Positions 8,068 to 26,671 of a stretch of 26,671 nucleotides of DNA are shown piece by piece. The stretch covers positions 1 to 26,671 of IMG/VR virus record IMGVR_UViG_3300024346_011932; one strand, 5' to 3'. The translations under genes and the position numbers were made by a program. This DNA comes from a virus. A model generated the notes under the pieces. That model had not been told where the DNA came from. It saw only the letters and a list, made by a program, of their open reading frames with translations, and did not search any database. The first letter of the stretch is position 1. Every line of letters starts with the position of its first letter.

Positions 8068-8479
8068 TCGGCGTCATCCCGAATTCTGCGGCGTAACGCA
8101 TCATGTCCGCCGCCGCCTTGTTGGCGGTGCCCACCAGCGGGTTCTGGACCGCGTTGCCGTTCGATGTCTTGATCATGAGGCCGCCGGTCAGCTGGTCCTT
8201 CTCGGCCATCTTCGCGATCGCGCGTTCAGCCTGGACCCAGCGGCCGTAAGCCATGGCGTAGGCAGCAAGGGCTGCCCGATCGATCTCGGAGAGGATCCCG
8301 AGGTTGTAGAGCTCGGTCGCCACCCGGTTCCATTCCTCGACCGCATCAGCGGTCAGATGGTGGGGAGGCATCGGAATAACGGCCTTAGTCTTGGCTTCCT
8401 TGCGATTGACCTGCCGTTTGCCGGGGTTGGACGTGACAAGCTTCAGCTGCGTGGGCTTCGGCTTTCTGCCGGTAATCAT
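7997..8479 (-). CDS. terS: Terminase small subunit, P27 family (TerS)
   Basis: A 160-aa DNA-recognition subunit. It begins with ITGRKPKPTQLKLVTSNPGKR, the classic P27 family opening. It ends with NPLVGTANKAAADMMRYAA and EFGMTPSARSRI, the family's C-terminal hallmark. The middle is helical with a WNRV segment. It would bind the packaging site and load TerL. The start overlaps the methyltransferase stop by ATGA, and its 3' end is overlapped by the TerL start region by about 70 bases. Confidence 0.94.
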   Translation of the reverse strand: MITGRKPKPTQLKLVTSNPGKRQVNRKEAKTKAVIPMPPHHLTADAVEEWNRVATELYNLGILSEIDRAALAAYAMAYGRWVQAERAIAKMAEKDQLTGGLMIKTSNGNAVQNPLVGTANKAAADMMRYAAEFGMTPSARSRIAAQPPEEGTDPADRFFA

Positions 8480-9729
8480 GCAGCCTCAGCTATTCTCCCG
8501 CCTGCAATCTCGTCAAAGGTCCGGCCGTCACCCTCGAGGGTCGCGGCTTTGCCCGTAAAATCTTGCCAGCGCTTCACGGCAACATCGATGTAAGCGGGAT
8601 TGAGCTCGATGGCGTGGACAGCGCGGCCGGTCATCTCACCGGCAATGATCGTGGTGCCCGAGCCCGAGAACGGCTCGTAGACCGCCTGACCCGGACTGGA
8701 GTTGTTCTCGATCGGGCGCTTCATGCACTCGACTGGCTTCTGGGTTCCGTGACCGGTCTCGTTCTTCTTGGGCTTGGCGATGTGCCAGACGGTAGTCTGC
8801 TTACGGTCACCGGCCCAGTGGCCCTTGGCTCCCTTCTTCACGGCATACCAACAGGGCTCATGCTCCCAGTGATAGTCGCCGCGCGACAGCACGAGCTGCC
8901 CCTTGTCCCAGATGATCTGGGAACGGAGCATCAAATCGCATGCCGCCAGGCTGTCGCCGACCACACCGGCATAAAGACCAGCGTGCCAGACATAGGCGAC
9001 GTCGCCTGGGAACAGTGCCCAGGCTTCGCGCCAGTCGGCCTTGTCGTCGTTGAGCACCTTGCCCTTGGCAGTGCCCGAAGCGGCCACGCCGGCCTTCTCA
9101 CGCCAGGCGGGGTCATACTCCACGCCGTATGGTGGATCAGTGACCATCAGGTGGGGTGAGACACCGTTCAGCGCCTTGGTGACGGTGTCGGCATCGGTGC
9201 TGTCGCCGCAGACCAGCCGGTGCTTGCCGAGCAGCCAGACGTCGCCGGGTTTGGCGATAGGGTCGATTGGCGCTTCCGGGATCTCATCGGGGTCAGTGTT
9301 GCCCTCGGTCTTTTCTGCCAGCAGCTTCGACAGTTCGTCGTCCGAGAAGCCGGTCAGCATCAGGTCGAAGTCAAACCCCTGCAGATCGCCAAGTTCGACG
9401 GCCAAGAGCTGAAGGTCCCAGCCGGCATTTAACGCCAGCTTGTTGTCGGCGATGACATAAGCCTTCTTCTGGGCTTCGCTCCAGCCTTTGGCGACCATGG
9501 TCGGGATCTGGGTCAGGCCTAGTTTGCGGGCGGCGAGCAAACGTCCGTGTCCTGCGATCAAACCGCCGTCTTCATCGACGAGGATCGGATTGGTCCAGCC
9601 CCATTCGCGGATCGAGGCGGCAATTTGCGCGACCTGCTCGTCCGAGTGCGTGCGGGAGTTGCGCGCATAGGGCGTGATCTTCTCTATCGGCCAGAGCTCG
9701 CTGCTCTGGGCCGGCCAGTTCTGATCCAT
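8476..9729 (-). CDS. DNA methyltransferase with N-terminal ParB-like domain
   Basis: A 417-aa fusion. Residues 1-100 form a ParB/Srx-like domain with the GHGR motif at 60-63. The remainder is an amino-methyltransferase of the beta order: the catalytic DPPYG is at 198-202, and the S-adenosylmethionine-binding FSGSGTT is at 354-360, followed by AIELNPAYID. The likely product is N6-adenine or N4-cytosine methylation of phage DNA, giving protection from host restriction or marking DNA for packaging. AAGGA lies five bases before the ATG. No partner restriction gene is nearby. Such fusions are common just upstream of terminase genes in alphaproteobacterial prophages. Target sequence unknown. Confidence 0.93.
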   Translation of the reverse strand: MDQNWPAQSSELWPIEKITPYARNSRTHSDEQVAQIAASIREWGWTNPILVDEDGGLIAGHGRLLAARKLGLTQIPTMVAKGWSEAQKKAYVIADNKLALNAGWDLQLLAVELGDLQGFDFDLMLTGFSDDELSKLLAEKTEGNTDPDEIPEAPIDPIAKPGDVWLLGKHRLVCGDSTDADTVTKALNGVSPHLMVTDPPYGVEYDPAWREKAGVAASGTAKGKVLNDDKADWREAWALFPGDVAYVWHAGLYAGVVGDSLAACDLMLRSQIIWDKGQLVLSRGDYHWEHEPCWYAVKKGAKGHWAGDRKQTTVWHIAKPKKNETGHGTQKPVECMKRPIENNSSPGQAVYEPFSGSGTTIIAGEMTGRAVHAIELNPAYIDVAVKRWQDFTGKAATLEGDGRTFDEIAGGRIAEAA

Positions 9730-20480: not shown

Positions 20481-20565
20481 CAACTGGGACTTCCTGTGTT
20501 TGGATGGACGATCGGTGCGTCCGAATTTGAAAAGCCAACGGCACGCACCGGGCGGGACAGCGGGG

Positions 20566-21288
20566 TCAGGACTTTTGTTCGGCGTGGTCACGAAGCCGCT
20601 TCAGAGCGCGCTGGAACCGCTTGCGCGCGGCCGGTTCCGACAGGCCGATTTCTTTGCCGGCCTCGGCCTGGGTGTAGCCATCGATCACGACGCGCAGGAC
20701 CAGTTCTGCATCGACTCCGATGAGGTCGGTCAGCTCGGCAAGCAGGCGTTCCGGTGAAAGGTCGGGATCAACGAAATCTGCGATCCCGCCGTGCAGGTCA
20801 GTGTCGAACTCATCCTGTATGCCCTGGCGTGCGGCTTCCCGATTGTGCGACCGGAGGATGTCCCGTTCGACGTTCTTGATGATGGTCGCAGCAATCCAGT
20901 TGACCTTCGACAGATCAAGATCCCTGATCGCGGCCGTGGCACGCCCAAGAATCTCGGAGGCAAGTTCGTCAATCTGGCCGAGGCGTCGGGCGCGGGAACG
21001 CCGAAAGACGCCATCCAGTCCGGGCCAGAGCGCAAGCAGCACAAGGGTAAGAGCACAGTCCCCGGCACGGTCGTTCGATTTGGCGCTCTCGATCAGCCCA
21101 GTCAGGATGGTGTTCTTTTTGTCTGCGGGCGCATCGCCGCGATGGAGGTGATCCAGCAATGCCGCCGGATCCGGAAAACGGGTCAATGCGCCGTGGCTGG
21201 TACGGACCGTGGCGAAGCCGCGCTGGAAGTTGAGGGTGGAAGAAGAATGCATGAGATTCCCGTGGAAATCGTGCCACGTGAAGGACAT
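20566..21288 (-). CDS. Sigma-70-like transcription factor
   Basis: A 240-aa protein. The C-terminal helix-turn-helix GYTQAEAGKEIGLSEPAARK followed by RFQRALKRLRDH matches sigma region 4, which binds -35 boxes. The centre (RATAAIRDLDLSKVNWIAATIIKNVERDI) resembles region 2, and there is no full region 1 or 3, as in small alternative sigma factors. It could direct transcription of other phage genes. The ATG at 21288 or the one at 21252 (MHSSS) may be the start; neither Shine-Dalgarno is strong. Repeats lie directly upstream. Whether it acts as a true sigma factor is an inference. Confidence 0.75.
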   Translation of the reverse strand: MSFTWHDFHGNLMHSSSTLNFQRGFATVRTSHGALTRFPDPAALLDHLHRGDAPADKKNTILTGLIESAKSNDRAGDCALTLVLLALWPGLDGVFRRSRARRLGQIDELASEILGRATAAIRDLDLSKVNWIAATIIKNVERDILRSHNREAARQGIQDEFDTDLHGGIADFVDPDLSPERLLAELTDLIGVDAELVLRVVIDGYTQAEAGKEIGLSEPAARKRFQRALKRLRDHAEQKS

Positions 21289-21388: not shown

Positions 21389-21631
21389 TCAGCGCAGCGC
21401 GGGACCGGTCACTGTGTTCAGCGAACCGCAACCGCGGCAGGTGGCCACCACAGGGAAGCCCACGAGGTATTCGTGGCCCCGCGCAAAGCGCAGGTGCATC
21501 TGGCTGTCACGGCAGACGCCGAGCAGCTTGGCGCAGCTGTTGCAGCGCCATTCACGTTGAGTGTTGGAAGGGGGCGTGCCGGCGTTGTGGCTCTGATTGG
21601 CCACGCGGCGGGAGAGGTAGGGAGTCGTCAT
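21389..21631 (-). CDS. Com-like zinc-ribbon protein
   Basis: An 80-aa protein. A first pair, WRCNSCAKLLG, and a second pair, VVATCRGCGSLN, give a C-x2-C ... C-x2-C zinc ribbon. The order resembles Mu Com, an RNA-binding protein that relieves a block on translation of the modification gene mom. The region between the pairs (MHLRFARGHEYLVGFP) is longer than in Com as I remember it. The ATG at 21631 has AGGAG seven bases before it; a GTG at 21673 is less likely. The Shine-Dalgarno lies in a hairpin. Com identity is an inference. Confidence 0.6.
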   Translation of the reverse strand: MTTPYLSRRVANQSHNAGTPPSNTQREWRCNSCAKLLGVCRDSQMHLRFARGHEYLVGFPVVATCRGCGSLNTVTGPALR

Positions 21632-21635
21632 CGGG

Positions 21636-21658
21636 GTGCTCCTCGTTTCAGGGAGCAC
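21636..21658 (-). promoter_or_regulatory. Hairpin covering the Com-like gene's ribosome binding site
   Basis: On the minus strand GTGCTCC-(9)-GGAGCAC is a perfect seven-base-pair stem. The 3' arm contains most of the AGGAG ribosome-binding site, and the ATG follows four bases after the stem (CCCG). Closed, it would block translation. Confidence 0.6.
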
Positions 21659-21674
21659 ACCCAATGACGTCACG

Positions 21675-21723: not shown

Positions 21724-23928
21724 TCAGATGGCGATCTCCCATTTCCCTTTTCCGGGGCTTCGGAGAAAGTTAGCTTTCAGCTTATCCCACAGTGGCTGCT
21801 TGAAAATGTTCGACAGAGACTGGTCCTCCGCGATTCCCTTGACGAGGCCTTCTGTTGCCATCGGCATTGGCCCTGCATTGTGGGCATCGACCAGCCGCTT
21901 GATGACCTCAATCCGGTTCTCGCCGGTGATGTCGATGCTGCCTTTCCCGGGAACGAACAGTGTCGCGATGCTTTCCCCGGCTCGGGTGAGTTCGACCGCC
22001 TGACCCCCGCGAGCCAAGATCCGGTGCCGTCGAAACACGGACCGGAGTTTGTCTGCGACGAGCGCGATTTCCGGCTGTTTACTGTCGATCTGATCGGCAA
22101 GCGGCGTCAGAACGTTAGCTGCCAGACACGGTCCCGGGGCGTTGCCGGCTTGCAGAACCAGTCCGATACCGAGATTGTGGCGCGCGCGAAGCTCAGTATC
22201 GATGGCAGACCTGACCTTTTCCCGGTCGAGGCCACGCGCGAGGTAGATCGGAACATCGCCGCCATCGACACCCAGTGTTCCGAGGTAGAGGAGATGGTCA
22301 GTCAGCTTTTCGATAGCGGGCGCATCGAGCGCTTGTTCAAGGCGTTCCTTCAGGTGTTGAGCAACCCAGTCGTCGCGCACCCGATAAATCCTGTAACGAT
22401 CCGGGTTGCCGGCAGGCGTCACATGTCCCTCGATAACCTTTAGGTCCGCTACCTTGTGAGCCTCACCCTCAGCATCTGCCTTTTCGACCCGGACAATCAC
22501 CTCGGCTGCAACCGGCCCTACCTCGTCTTCATCGTCGATCAGATCGTCGCCTTCCCAACCGGCGGGCACAAGAAAGCCCAGTTCGGTCAGGAGGCCTGGA
22601 TCGACACCACGATCCAGAAGCCATGCGCCGGTGACCTTGTCTGCCCCGATGTCCCAGATGGCCAGCAACGCTGGCAACACAGCCATGCCTTCCTCATCGC
22701 CTGGCGCGCGACCCTCCCGGAGGATATTCCAGTGTCTTAGCAGGCGATGGCCAAGAACCCGTTCAAAAGGGTCTTCGACGCTGAGAAGGCTGCTTGTGTT
22801 GCGGTCGGTAATCGTGAAGTCGAGAGTCTGGGCATATTCTCGCCCTGCACGGCGATATCGCACTGCGATCTCGATCAACCGGATCGCGATCGCCTGCTCG
22901 AAAATCTTCGGAAGGCCGGTTTGGCTTTCGATGACCGCTGAGATGTCCTGGCTGATGGTAGTGGAAAGCGAGAGACGGTTCGCGAGATTTCCGATGCTGA
23001 TGTCGGCGCGGATCACCTTCGCGCGCTCTATCACCACGTCGTCGAGTTCGGGCGGCACCAGGTCGAACCCCTTCAGGAACTGCGAGATGTCGTAGGCCTG
23101 AAAATCAACGGGCTGGTTCGAATAGGTCTGATCAAGAGCAGTCTCGATAAAGCGCTCGGCGATAGTATGCCTCAGCGTTCGGTTGCCCGCACGAACATGC
23201 ACCCGTCCGGTTGATGGGGTATAGACGATCATCGCCTCTCCAGGCGGTCGGAAATAGATGCTCGAACGATTGCCTTCGTCATCGATCTCCCGAACACTCG
23301 TGGGAGGATCGGGATGGAAAAGCAGGTACATTTCTGCAGCCGGTTCATCGCCGTCCGCTGGGATGTCGAATCTGTCGATGCTGTATCCGTCGCCGCGATT
23401 GAGACGCTTGTTCAGATCGGCAAGAAGCGCATCGAGTACTGCGCCGCCGGCATCCGGGCCGCCATCAACTGAAGGTTCGGCCATGAAGGTCTGGTAGTGC
23501 TTGTCATAACGGCGGTACAGCCGCATGTGCAGACTGTTTTCCGCCGCTTCAAAGACGCCGTGATGATGCACAAAAGCCCAGAGGCTTCGTGCGAGTTTGT
23601 CACGCTGATTGAGAAGCTTCTTGGCGTCTTCGGGTTCGAGCGAGGCGCTCGCCAGAGCTTGTAGGACGTACTCTCCACGGTCGCTGGCGATTGTGACAAT
23701 TCGCGCTGCTTCGGCCTCAAGCGGGCCCAGCCTGTCCTTCTTTTCCAGCTGCAGCATGTTTCTAGCAACGGACGGCCCGTCCGGGTTGTCCGGATCGAAC
23801 TTGTAGGTCGTAAGCCAGCTCAACCTCTCGAAAACCTTGCTTTCAAGAAAGCCGGACAGCAAACTAGGCTCTGCATCATCGAATAGCCGAGAAAGATTAG
23901 GGCAGGTTTTGGCCGGCGTGCGTACCAT
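21724..23928 (-). CDS. Large protein of unknown function (possible cargo or regulator)
   Basis: A 734-aa soluble protein with no signal peptide or membrane segments; I recognise no catalytic motif. Visible parts are a helical N-terminal region (1-150), an acidic patch GDDLIDDEDEV (460-470), and segments that look like strands around 225-260. The C-terminal region (about 670-734: NRIEVIKRLVDAHNAGPMP ... SLSNIFKQPLWDKLKANFL) has the look of a winged helix. GGAG lies seven bases before the ATG. It sits between the recombinase cassette and the early operon, where repressors or accessory defence genes are found. No function is claimed. Confidence 0.75.
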   Translation of the reverse strand: MVRTPAKTCPNLSRLFDDAEPSLLSGFLESKVFERLSWLTTYKFDPDNPDGPSVARNMLQLEKKDRLGPLEAEAARIVTIASDRGEYVLQALASASLEPEDAKKLLNQRDKLARSLWAFVHHHGVFEAAENSLHMRLYRRYDKHYQTFMAEPSVDGGPDAGGAVLDALLADLNKRLNRGDGYSIDRFDIPADGDEPAAEMYLLFHPDPPTSVREIDDEGNRSSIYFRPPGEAMIVYTPSTGRVHVRAGNRTLRHTIAERFIETALDQTYSNQPVDFQAYDISQFLKGFDLVPPELDDVVIERAKVIRADISIGNLANRLSLSTTISQDISAVIESQTGLPKIFEQAIAIRLIEIAVRYRRAGREYAQTLDFTITDRNTSSLLSVEDPFERVLGHRLLRHWNILREGRAPGDEEGMAVLPALLAIWDIGADKVTGAWLLDRGVDPGLLTELGFLVPAGWEGDDLIDDEDEVGPVAAEVIVRVEKADAEGEAHKVADLKVIEGHVTPAGNPDRYRIYRVRDDWVAQHLKERLEQALDAPAIEKLTDHLLYLGTLGVDGGDVPIYLARGLDREKVRSAIDTELRARHNLGIGLVLQAGNAPGPCLAANVLTPLADQIDSKQPEIALVADKLRSVFRRHRILARGGQAVELTRAGESIATLFVPGKGSIDITGENRIEVIKRLVDAHNAGPMPMATEGLVKGIAEDQSLSNIFKQPLWDKLKANFLRSPGKGKWEIAI

Positions 23929-24319
23929 ATAAGTCTCCGAAAATTCTGCCTTGGGCTATCGTTCGCAAATAGATCGTCCCATGCTCAGATATTGACGCTG
24001 TAAAGTTGGATGCGCGGATTGAGGAAAACCATTTCGCTCATTGGGCTAGGCTGCCTCGTTTCGGTCAGCGCTAGAACGCGGCGATCTGCAGAACTCGCTT
24101 TTCGTGACACGCGACCCCCATTCATCAAGCTAGGCTGATTACTTGATTCGCCAGCAATCATTGCCGCCACCGATACAGCGCGCAAGGGGCAATGTTCTGG
24201 ACTTGTTCACACCCTGTTGATTGCGCGGCTTGCGTCCTGTCCCGTTCCGCATGGCAAACTGGCTTTTCCGTCTCAGCACCATCGTTCGGCACAGCCAGAC
24301 GAGAGACGGAGACCCACAC
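23929..24319. other. Divergent non-coding gap between cargo gene and recombinase cassette
   Basis: A 391-base region separating the minus-strand 734-aa gene from the plus-strand cassette, so promoters for both should lie here; I find no convincing -35/-10 pair. A nine-base direct repeat, GCTAGGCTG, occurs at 24045-24053 and 24129-24137 (84 bases apart, eight turns). Short open frames here show no family resemblance. An attachment site could lie here but cannot be identified from one end. Confidence 0.5.
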
Positions 24320-24526
24320 GTGAAACGCCCGAATCCGCTGCCACCGAGCAACATGTCCCCCACCCAGCGACGGAATGAGCTGTGCGCCGTCCTCGGGCTT
24401 GGCCTCGCCCGCCTGCACCTCCGGAATGTCGGTCAATTATCTGAAGAGGATGGAGACTTTCCGCTACACTTCGCACCTGAACAGAGCGGTAGTGCACCTC
24501 CAACTCAGTGGAGCAACGCACAATGA
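24320..24526 (+). CDS. Small protein upstream of the DUF2924 gene
   Basis: A 68-aa protein from a GTG with GGAG eight bases upstream. The middle, SPTQRRNELCAVLGLGLARLHLR, and the end, FPLHFAPEQSGSAPP, match, from memory, small proteins that commonly precede DUF2924 and serine recombinase genes in Alphaproteobacteria. The stop overlaps the DUF2924 start by ATGA. An ATG at 24353 is an alternative start. The role is unknown; the tight coupling suggests it belongs to the recombination unit. Confidence 0.65.
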   Translation: MKRPNPLPPSNMSPTQRRNELCAVLGLGLARLHLRNVGQLSEEDGDFPLHFAPEQSGSAPPTQWSNAQ

Positions 24527-24972
24527 AACCCGATCCCGTACTTGCCCGCCTGGCCGCCATGAAGGCGGCTCCGGTCGCCGAGCTGAAGAAGCAGTGGCGC
24601 GAGCTGTTCAGCGAGGAACCGCCGGCCTTCAACCGGCGCTATCTTGAGAGCCGACTGGCCTATCGCATCCAGGAACTCGCCTACGGCGGCCTCAAGCAGG
24701 AAACAGTCAGGCGCCTGCAACAGATGGGGGAACAGCTCGACGGCGGCAACATCACCACCCGCCGCGTGCGGGCCGACCTCAAGCCGATCGTGGGAACCCG
24801 CCTGATCCGGGAGTGGCAAGGCGTCGAGCACACCGTGACCGTCACCCAGGACGGTTTCGAATGGCAGGGTCGTCCCTACCAGTCACTGTCCGCAATCGCC
24901 CGCGCCGTCACCGGCTCGCGCTGGAACGGCTGGATATTCTTCGGCCTCAAGGACCATCGGAGGGCCGCATGA
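24523..24972 (+). CDS. DUF2924 protein
   Basis: A 149-aa protein with the DUF2924 core: LARLAAMKAAPVAELKKQWRELF, then PPAFNRRYLESRLAYRIQELAYGGL (about 33-57). The end (YQSLSAIARAVTGSRWNGWIFFGL) contains a RAMA-like fold motif, often a DNA- or modification-reading unit. DUF2924 proteins are coupled to serine recombinases in alphaproteobacterial prophages and islands, possibly as directionality or DNA-binding helpers; the function is not established. The start at 24523 overlaps the previous stop and the end overlaps the recombinase start. Confidence 0.88.
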   Translation: MKPDPVLARLAAMKAAPVAELKKQWRELFSEEPPAFNRRYLESRLAYRIQELAYGGLKQETVRRLQQMGEQLDGGNITTRRVRADLKPIVGTRLIREWQGVEHTVTVTQDGFEWQGRPYQSLSAIARAVTGSRWNGWIFFGLKDHRRAA

Positions 24973-26279
24973 ACACGCCTATTACGCGCAAGCTGCGCTG
25001 CGCGGTCTACACGCGCAAATCTTCGGAAGAAGGGCTCGAGCAGGAGTTCAACTCGCTCCATGCCCAGCGAGAGGCCTGTGAGGCCTACATCACCAGCCAG
25101 CGCGCCGAAGGGTGGGTGCTGGTCCGTGACCAGTATGACGACGGCGGGATTTCCGGCGGCACCCTTGATCGCCCGGGACTGAAGCGCCTGCTTTCGGATA
25201 TCGAGGACGGGCTGGTCGACGTGGTGGTGGTCTACAAAATCGACCGCCTCTCGCGATCCCTGATGGACTTTGCCAAGCTGGTCGAAGTGTTCGACCGGAA
25301 CGACGTGACCTTCGTATCGGTGACGCAAGCGTTCAACACGACGACCAGCATGGGCCGGCTGACCCTTAACGTCCTGCTGTCCTTCGCCCAGTTCGAGCGC
25401 GAGGTAACCGCCGAGCGTATTCGCGACAAGTTCGCGGCCAGCCGCGCCAAGGGCATCTGGATGGGCGGTGTCCCGCCGCTGGGTTATGACGTGGTGTCCC
25501 GCAAACTGGTGGTGAATGAAAAGGCGGCGGCCAATGTCCGCTACATTTTCCAGCGGTTCCGCGATGTCGGATCGGCCACACTTCTGCTGCGGGAATTGCG
25601 GGAGCGAGGTATCACGACCCGCCAGGGCAAGACGATTACCAAGGGCTACCTGTACCGCCTGCTCGCCAACAAGGCCTACATCGGCGAGGCCGTCCACAAG
25701 GGCAACAGCTATCCCGGCGAACATGAGGCGATCATTGATCAGGAGCTCTGGGATGCCGTGCGCGCCATCACGAAGGAAAGCCCTCGGACCCGGGCAAACC
25801 GTGCGCGCGCCAATACGCCTGCCTTGCTGAAGGGACTACTCTGGGGTTCGGATGGCGGGGCGTTTTCACCGACCCACTCCTGCAAGAACGGCAAGCTCTA
25901 CCGCTACTATGTCAGCCAGACGCTACTCCGCCATGGAGCAGGCTCCACCACGGTCGGGCGCGTCCCCGCCGCCGAAATCGAAGGCGCGGTCGTCAATCAA
26001 CTGCGGGCCGTGTTCCGGCAGCCGGAAATCATCCTCGGCGCATGGAAGGAGGCCGTCAAACACGCGCCCGCATTGACCGAAGCTCAAGCGCGGGAAGCAC
26101 TGATCAATCTGGACCCAATGTGGGATGAACTATTCCCGGCCGAGCAGGCCCGGATCGTGCAGCTACTGATCGACCGGGTCATCGTTGGCAGCGCCGGGCT
26201 GGAACTGAAGCTGAGGGTGGACGGGCTCGATGCGCTGGCCCGGGAACTGCAGGTGCCGGAACTGGAGGAGGCAGCGTGA
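24969..26279 (+). CDS. Large serine recombinase (likely prophage integrase)
   Basis: A 436-aa serine recombinase. The catalytic Ser is S18 in VYTRKSSEEG, with R93/R96 in YKIDRLSRS and R130 in SMGRLTLN. The recombinase domain starts at GGVPPLGYDV. The C-terminal part has the recombinase DNA-binding layout (RQGKTITKGYLYRLLANKAYIG), but its ribbon region (WGSDGGAFSPTHSCKNGKLYRYYVS) has lost the usual CxxC pair. That is typical of this alphaproteobacterial group as I recall it. It would insert and excise the phage. The ATG overlaps the DUF2924 stop (ATGA); an in-frame start 52 codons earlier is unlikely. Confidence 0.93.
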   Translation: MNTPITRKLRCAVYTRKSSEEGLEQEFNSLHAQREACEAYITSQRAEGWVLVRDQYDDGGISGGTLDRPGLKRLLSDIEDGLVDVVVVYKIDRLSRSLMDFAKLVEVFDRNDVTFVSVTQAFNTTTSMGRLTLNVLLSFAQFEREVTAERIRDKFAASRAKGIWMGGVPPLGYDVVSRKLVVNEKAAANVRYIFQRFRDVGSATLLLRELRERGITTRQGKTITKGYLYRLLANKAYIGEAVHKGNSYPGEHEAIIDQELWDAVRAITKESPRTRANRARANTPALLKGLLWGSDGGAFSPTHSCKNGKLYRYYVSQTLLRHGAGSTTVGRVPAAEIEGAVVNQLRAVFRQPEIILGAWKEAVKHAPALTEAQAREALINLDPMWDELFPAEQARIVQLLIDRVIVGSAGLELKLRVDGLDALARELQVPELEEAA

Positions 26280-26671
26280 GCAAGGTCGTGACAATTCCCC
26301 AGACAGTGTCGATCCACATTCCTTTCCAGATCACCAAGCGCGGCGGCCGCAAGGAGATGGTTCTGCCAGCCGGAGCCCAGCTTCAGCGCCCGCGCACCGA
26401 CAACACGGTGGTGAAGGCCCTGGCCCGGGCTTTTCGTTGGAAACGCCTGCTGGAAACCGGAGCCTACACATCGGTGTCGGACCTCGCTGAGAAAGAAAAA
26501 ATCGGCCTGAGCTATCTGACCCGGGTCCTGCGCATGACGCTGCTGGCCCCTGACATCGTCGATGCAATTCTTGACGGCCGACAGGGCGACGGAATTGATC
26601 TTGCCACGCTGGCCGCGCCATTTCCTAATGAATGGAGCGCGCAGCGGCGACATTTTGGCTTCGACGCCTGA
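26276..26671 (+). CDS. ParB-like helix-turn-helix protein of the recombinase cassette
   Basis: A 131-aa protein that starts with GTG inside the recombinase stop (GTGA), so the two are coupled. Residues 60-100 (VSDLAEKEKIGLSYLTRVLRM, then APDIVDAILDGRQ) resemble the KorB/ParB helix-turn-helix. The end, FPNEWSAQRRHFGFDA, is characteristic of the family as I recall it. It has no nuclease motif. It could be a directionality or DNA-pairing factor for the recombinase. The stop is the last three bases of the window. Confidence 0.72.
   Translation: MSKVVTIPQTVSIHIPFQITKRGGRKEMVLPAGAQLQRPRTDNTVVKALARAFRWKRLLETGAYTSVSDLAEKEKIGLSYLTRVLRMTLLAPDIVDAILDGRQGDGIDLATLAAPFPNEWSAQRRHFGFDA

Follow-up and report, generated by a model that had tools for sequence, protein, structure and literature searches.

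A fused two-part protein as a candidate early switch protein in a predicted LexA-to-sigma circuit of temperate phages

We analysed a virus record of 26,671 bases (hereafter the window) and in particular its 734-aa protein, fam734. Our best explanation, to which we give a probability of about one half, is that fam734 serves a temperate phage as an immediate-early switch protein, one that binds DNA and belongs to a cascade leading from host LexA to a phage sigma factor. As fam734 heads a predicted operon with a LexA box and a phage sigma factor, its most likely role is to help wake the dormant virus, and a role as a defence gene is unlikely.

The fam734 reading frame is uninterrupted from its ATG at 23928 to its stop at 21724 on the minus strand. 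The original prediction had placed it between the integrase genes and the early genes and facing away from the integrase, and this is how it lies: the serine-integrase operon occupies 24320-26671 on the plus strand, and the early genes are on the minus strand. It had also been called the largest gene in the window, which is incorrect, as a primase of 804 aa exceeds it (Table 1). The gene is under purifying selection (dN/dS 0.11-0.12). Relatives at 54-100% identity were found in dozens of loci, mainly Rhodobacteraceae prophages, and more remote ones (~26-31% identity) occur in Acidithiobacillus phage AcaML1, in Shinella and elsewhere. The same prophage is present in a Sphingomonadales genome (L048), where the fam734 protein is 100% identical. 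A host sulfate-permease-like (STAS) gene in that genome (4688-5224) is apparently interrupted by the prophage, the truncated reading frame having been judged by eye. Copies of fam734 broken by a frameshift or stop were seen in L055, L060, L067, L309 and L310, in prophages that are otherwise recognisable.

Table 1. Coordinates of the features discussed, numbered along the window.
Feature	Position	Strand	Basis or remark
fam734	21724..23928	-	natural fusion of proteins A and B, from profile alignment
N-terminal half, residues 1-410, protein A (phrog_37634 family)	22699..23928	-	phrog_37634 E 3.3e-18; hhalign
C-terminal half, residues 411-734, protein B	21727..22698	-	hhalign
CENP-N/CENP-L/RdgC-like (TBP-like) predicted fold, residues 134-405	22714..23529	-	structure comparison
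Nuclease-like (PD-(D/E)XK) predicted arrangement, residues 407-633	22030..22710	-	Can2 Z 6.5, FokI Z 5.8
OmpR/PhoB-type predicted winged helix, residues 643-734	21727..22002	-	VanR Z 6.0-6.4, PmrA Z 5.7-5.9
Predicted LexA (SOS) box GTTCTGGACTTGTTC, the only one in the window	24194..24208	.	GTTCN7GTTC; host recA/lexA controls
Promoter-like -35 TTGCGC, 17 nt, -10 AATGAT, toward fam734	24157..24185	-	conserved in relatives
Small ORF, 41 aa, GTG start, between promoter and fam734	23985..24110	-	N-terminus conserved in relatives
94-aa protein with two CxxC pairs (Zn-ribbon)	21389..21673	-	between fam734 and sigma in nearly all fused-form loci
Phage sigma factor, 240 aa (Sigma70_r4_2)	20566..21288	-	26.9 bits vs cut-off 25.7; phrog_1740 E 9e-9
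Putative sigma-dependent promoter TGTCCC-N17-GGCTTTT, toward integrase operon	24238..24267	+	motif scan
Putative sigma-dependent promoter TGTCCC-N17-GGCTTTT, toward replication operon	20530..20559	-	motif scan
Small first ORF of integrase operon, 68 aa, VKRPNPLPP...	24320..24526	+	
DUF2924 protein, integrase operon	24508..24972	+	E 7.5e-53
Large serine recombinase (integrase)	24969..26279	+	
Small recombinase subunit (phrog_14161)	26276..26671	+	
Primase Prim-Pol/PriCT_2/DUF3987, 804 aa	13087-15501		larger than fam734

The original prediction could assign no function to the protein, and our family searches agree with this, as no curated family matches it. Searches of Pfam, NCBIfam, PADLOC and PDB sequences with fam734 returned no relative; the only Pfam match was a single sub-threshold one to T2SSK, and the RdgC profile was not matched. 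The XRE-type HTH plus S24 domain of CI/LexA-type repressors was absent in the family search, and no clear match to a known housekeeping or structural family appeared. The sole family match was to one PHROG without a function, phrog_37634, through the N-terminal half.

Profile comparisons indicate that fam734 is a natural fusion of two proteins that sister prophages encode separately. In a family-profile search, proteins A (~390 aa) and B (~315-330 aa) were found as separate adjacent genes in the same slot of these sister prophages, and stand-alone A matches phrog_37634 with an E of 5e-87. With hhalign, A aligns to fam734 residues 11-436 (probability 100, E 1.3e-59) and B to residues 416-734 (probability 99.4, E 5e-21), and MAFFT set the A rows and the B rows on the respective halves unprompted. 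Both halves of fam734 thus match the A-B two-gene family (phrog_37634) by profile. A sample of 398 Pseudomonadota genomes contained 32 with a match to the A family. Among split-form loci L156-L191, B drops to 31-40% while A stays 72-98% conserved in the same loci, which suggests that B is the variable, specificity-like half.

The AlphaFold2 model suggests that fam734 binds DNA and is not an enzyme. The model has several domains, with a mean pLDDT of 78 and a pTM of 0.48, and all of its fold matches have Z below 8, a level which the structure-comparison tool labels as possibly generic. Residues 134-405 resemble CENP-N and CENP-L (Foldseek E 3.7e-4, Z up to 7.9) and also match RnlA and, weakly, RdgC (Z 5.8 over 214 residues, rmsd 6.8); the best BFVD match of the model is a phage RdgC. 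Because the yeast orthologues of CENP-N and CENP-L resemble RdgC and TBP (PMC4080450), the CENP-N, CENP-L and RdgC matches form one coherent set. The likeness to these proteins is one of predicted fold with no sequence match, and fam734 differs from them in adding the B half. Profile searches of the PDB with A1-A3 gave chance matches or none.

The fold reading of the B half draws on VIA scores, which may be generic; Foldseek with this half alone gave no significant match. Residues 407-633 resemble a nuclease core in the model, at scores that may be generic, and the conserved D and (D/E)xK catalytic residues are absent from the fam734-family alignments. The original prediction that the protein may end in a winged helix is backed by the predicted structure, in which residues 643-734 match many OmpR-family effector domains (Z 5-6.4 over 81-84 residues, again possibly generic scores); Pfam Trans_reg_C was not matched. 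Of the folds that had been suggested for checking, a winged helix is suggested by the model, a nuclease-like core is suggested without its catalytic motif, and no ATPase motif was found, nor any nuclease or other enzymatic motif. Since the predicted folds are of DNA-binding types and carry no enzymatic motif, DNA binding is the natural reading of fam734.

The position of fam734 among its relatives was surveyed in non-redundant loci with enough flank; as these loci share ancestry, neither the slot counts nor the motif counts given below are independent events. In all fused-form loci, fam734 has the integrase operon on one side and the early genes on the other, and 47 of the 52 also carry the Zn-ribbon protein and the sigma factor, the five without sigma being the AcaML1 group. 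The pair of an XRE protein and an ImmA-like protease is absent in all 52. Split-form loci have XRE plus ImmA in 38 of 43 cases and sigma in none of the 43. Thus, ImmR/ImmA-type modules (XRE repressor plus M78 protease) share the immunity region with split A and B in sister prophages and are absent from all fused-form loci examined. As repressor and protease coexist with A-B in the split-form phages, A-B is not the repressor there.

When sigma-bearing phages were fetched independently of fam734, the slot was often filled by another protein: a repressor of S24/CI type together with a small divergent ORF in L361, HTH_36/DnaD-like proteins in some phages that lack fam734, and a 309-319-aa protein without a family in L351 (1760-2719), L354, L363 and L366. 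These alternative fillers argue most strongly for a control function of the slot. The survey of neighbours proposed in the original prediction finds a conserved early slot, in which mostly DNA-binding regulators substitute in sister phages. Since HTH_36 proteins are typed as replication initiators as well, the slot may not be purely regulatory.

This last point bears on the strongest rival to our reading, namely that fam734 is a replication or recombination mediator that binds the phage origin or single-strand or duplex DNA and helps the replication machinery by loading or protecting it, as an analogue of lambda O or RdgC, with LexA merely setting the timing. Two observations make it the strongest: in P4-like elements (L296, L311) A-B comes before primase genes, and HTH_36 proteins of the slot resemble replication initiators. 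In addition, DnaD- and O-like proteins take the same place in sister phages, fam734 heads the replication-side operon, and both its predicted fold and its best BFVD match point toward RdgC. We nevertheless consider it doubtful, as the fold match to RdgC is weak, the slot in L361 holds an S24 repressor, and no iterons or direct repeats were found upstream of fam734. An operator search in the same region gave two weak inverted repeats only, and no operator for fam734 was found.

The slot also exchanges its contents as a block. Loci L084 and L053 have flanks that are 87% and 94% identical in DNA, but their fam734 proteins are 27% identical, and the gene together with ~313 bp upstream has no DNA similarity. 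The same exchange is seen between L127 and L051; across both pairs the flanks are 86-87% and 93-94% identical and the swapped alleles 27-32%. Such cassettes inside near-identical flanks, the faster evolution of B than of A, and the place of fam734 as the first large gene of the early operon would suit an immediate-early inhibitor of a host defence or of another host protein, its alleles being swapped under host pressure. We regard this anti-defence or host-takeover role as unlikely, since the domains look DNA-binding, the exchanged cassettes take in the promoter region, and the alternatives in the slot are mostly DNA-binding regulators.

Upstream of fam734 stands the predicted LexA box. GTTCN7GTTC, a box of alphaproteobacterial type, is the LexA motif of Caulobacter (PMC12700426). 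In the host genome, the domain match to recA has three such boxes ~130-170 bp past its 5' end, and the one to lexA has two, ~40-70 bp past its own. An exact box was found in 35 of 64 distinct fused-form upstream regions, mostly near -301, where the expectation is 0.027 per region; the remaining 29 lack it, including several Paracoccus alleles and the swapped L084 and L127 alleles. It recurs beside highly divergent fam734 alleles (~30% identical; L151, L347, L350). The 74 split-form upstream regions contain three boxes, which is about background. Thus, a box of host type stands at the early promoter of fam734, as in a LexA-controlled prophage, and LexA binding to it is predicted. The early region that was scanned and the DNA to the right of the integrase yielded no repressor of the phage's own.

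Adjoining the box, 24 aligned loci keep a TTG, a gap of 17 nt and an AT-rich hexamer of -10 type directed toward fam734. A generic sigma-70 promoter scan did not flag this site, so that the -35/-10 call is based on conservation. Past the promoter come the 41-aa ORF, whose N-terminus is, for example, MARKATPIGPHVLEQIEDARVDL in L051, then a ribosome-binding site and then fam734. Because the only recognisable promoter of fam734 lies under the LexA box, the protein would be made mostly on induction or infection, which does not suit a repressor that holds lysogeny.

The next genes of the same strand encode the Zn-ribbon protein and the sigma factor, and we infer that they are co-transcribed with fam734 as one operon. 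A search of phage records returned no relative of the sigma factor. A candidate for its promoters is the motif TGTCCC-N17-GGCTTTT, which was first noticed as a conserved block beside the LexA box; the motif is a post hoc finding. When spacers of 10-24 were allowed, all 178 matches had a spacer of 17. The motif was present in 46 of 47 non-redundant sigma-bearing fused-form loci, compared with none of the 43 split-form loci, and in 24/24 loci fetched by the sigma protein alone. The 3.0 Mb host genome has just two copies, each of them inside this prophage. In a motif-only scan of viral contigs, 20 of the 21 loci with at least two copies had a sigma gene; most single-copy loci had none and are presumably chance matches. 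On these computed associations, the simplest reading is that TGTCCC-N17-GGCTTTT marks putative promoters of the phage sigma factor. In some relatives the motif also precedes a third unit, and many have a third copy ~0.6-0.7 kb before the helicase. The reverse form, AAAAGCC-N17-GGGACA, had been considered as an attachment core; this was dropped, as it is the reverse complement of the promoter-like motif before two to three operons.

Based on these findings, we propose a model of how the switch may work. In the lysogen, host LexA on 24194-24208 would keep the minus-strand operon (small ORF, fam734, Zn-ribbon protein, sigma) low. DNA damage that removes LexA, or entry into a new cell, would allow the operon to be transcribed. 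The phage sigma factor would then direct RNA polymerase to TGTCCC-N17-GGCTTTT, and the integrase and replication operons would fire. As for fam734, it may bind DNA of the control region and set the strength or direction of the switch, in a Cro-like or activator-like manner. Several points weigh against this model: the low Z values of the fold matches, the coexistence of split A-B with a separate repressor, the possible replication role of HTH_36 slot proteins, the 29 fused-form regions lacking an exact box, the absence of an operator for fam734 in the search, and the post hoc discovery of the motifs, the LexA box included.

Under this model fam734 would be scarce in an undamaged lysogen, which argues both against a maintenance repressor and against defence cargo. 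The original prediction had offered a new type of lysogeny regulator or a single-gene defence protein. The first idea holds in part: the slot is that of a switch (LexA box, sigma operon, S24 and HTH_36 substitutes) and the protein looks DNA-binding, but the LexA-box promoter speaks against a repressor that holds lysogeny. The second, in which fam734 would be single-gene defence or superinfection-exclusion cargo, draws on a function-less gene near an integrase and on distant A-B pairs near restriction-modification genes in P4-like elements (L296, L297). We consider it very improbable, as fam734 matched no PADLOC model of known anti-phage defence systems and has no catalytic motif, it shares an early operon under a LexA-box promoter with a phage sigma factor, and it is kept across many phages in a constant early slot, as one among several regulators and not as variable cargo.

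More tentatively, and with less conviction than the switch role itself, we suggest that the A-B proteins, fused or split, may form a new class of prophage switch proteins, which combine a domain of RdgC/CENP-N type with a dead nuclease core and a winged helix of OmpR type, in a hitherto undescribed two-step lysogeny circuit where LexA represses sigma and sigma activates the integrase and replication operons. LexA-controlled prophages and integrase genes controlled by alternative sigma factors are already known separately. In the open-access literature searched, we found no precedent for the combination of a LexA box over the gene of a phage sigma factor with promoters for that factor at the integrase and replication genes; this absence counts as weak evidence. 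If true, our model would describe a compact circuit by which a large group of alphaproteobacterial prophages is induced, make TGTCCC-N17-GGCTTTT usable for annotating them, and give a first functional frame to a large A protein family that lacks an assigned role.

Several known systems resemble parts of the model. In phage GIL01, host LexA and a small phage partner, gp7, are reported to hold lysogeny (PMC4551915). The likeness lies in a host LexA site at the lysogenic or early promoter and a phage accessory protein, LexA binding being predicted in our case. Unlike fam734, gp7 is small and binds LexA and not DNA, and the abstract describes no sigma cascade. By analogy with gp7, the 41-aa ORF could be an accessory factor. 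The int promoter of a staphylococcal prophage is read by host sigma-H (PMC2869324); here too an alternative sigma factor would read the integrase promoter, but its gene belongs to the phage and lies in the LexA-box operon. GafA-like regulation (PMC9638019) was set aside because GafA is a different type of protein. The AcaML1 homologue of fam734, gp6 (26% identity over 94%), also lies beside the large and small subunits of a serine recombinase. AcaML1 differs in that gp6, annotated as hypothetical, is read toward the integrase and in that there is no sigma gene or motif.

Two further observations concern neighbouring genes. In the P4-like elements (L296, L297, L311), the distant A-B pairs lie between tyrosine integrase or restriction-modification genes and primase, and their B proteins bear CxxC. 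In the window, a ParB-like domain fused to a DNA methyltransferase is encoded at 8476-9729 on the minus strand, adjoining the terminase genes.
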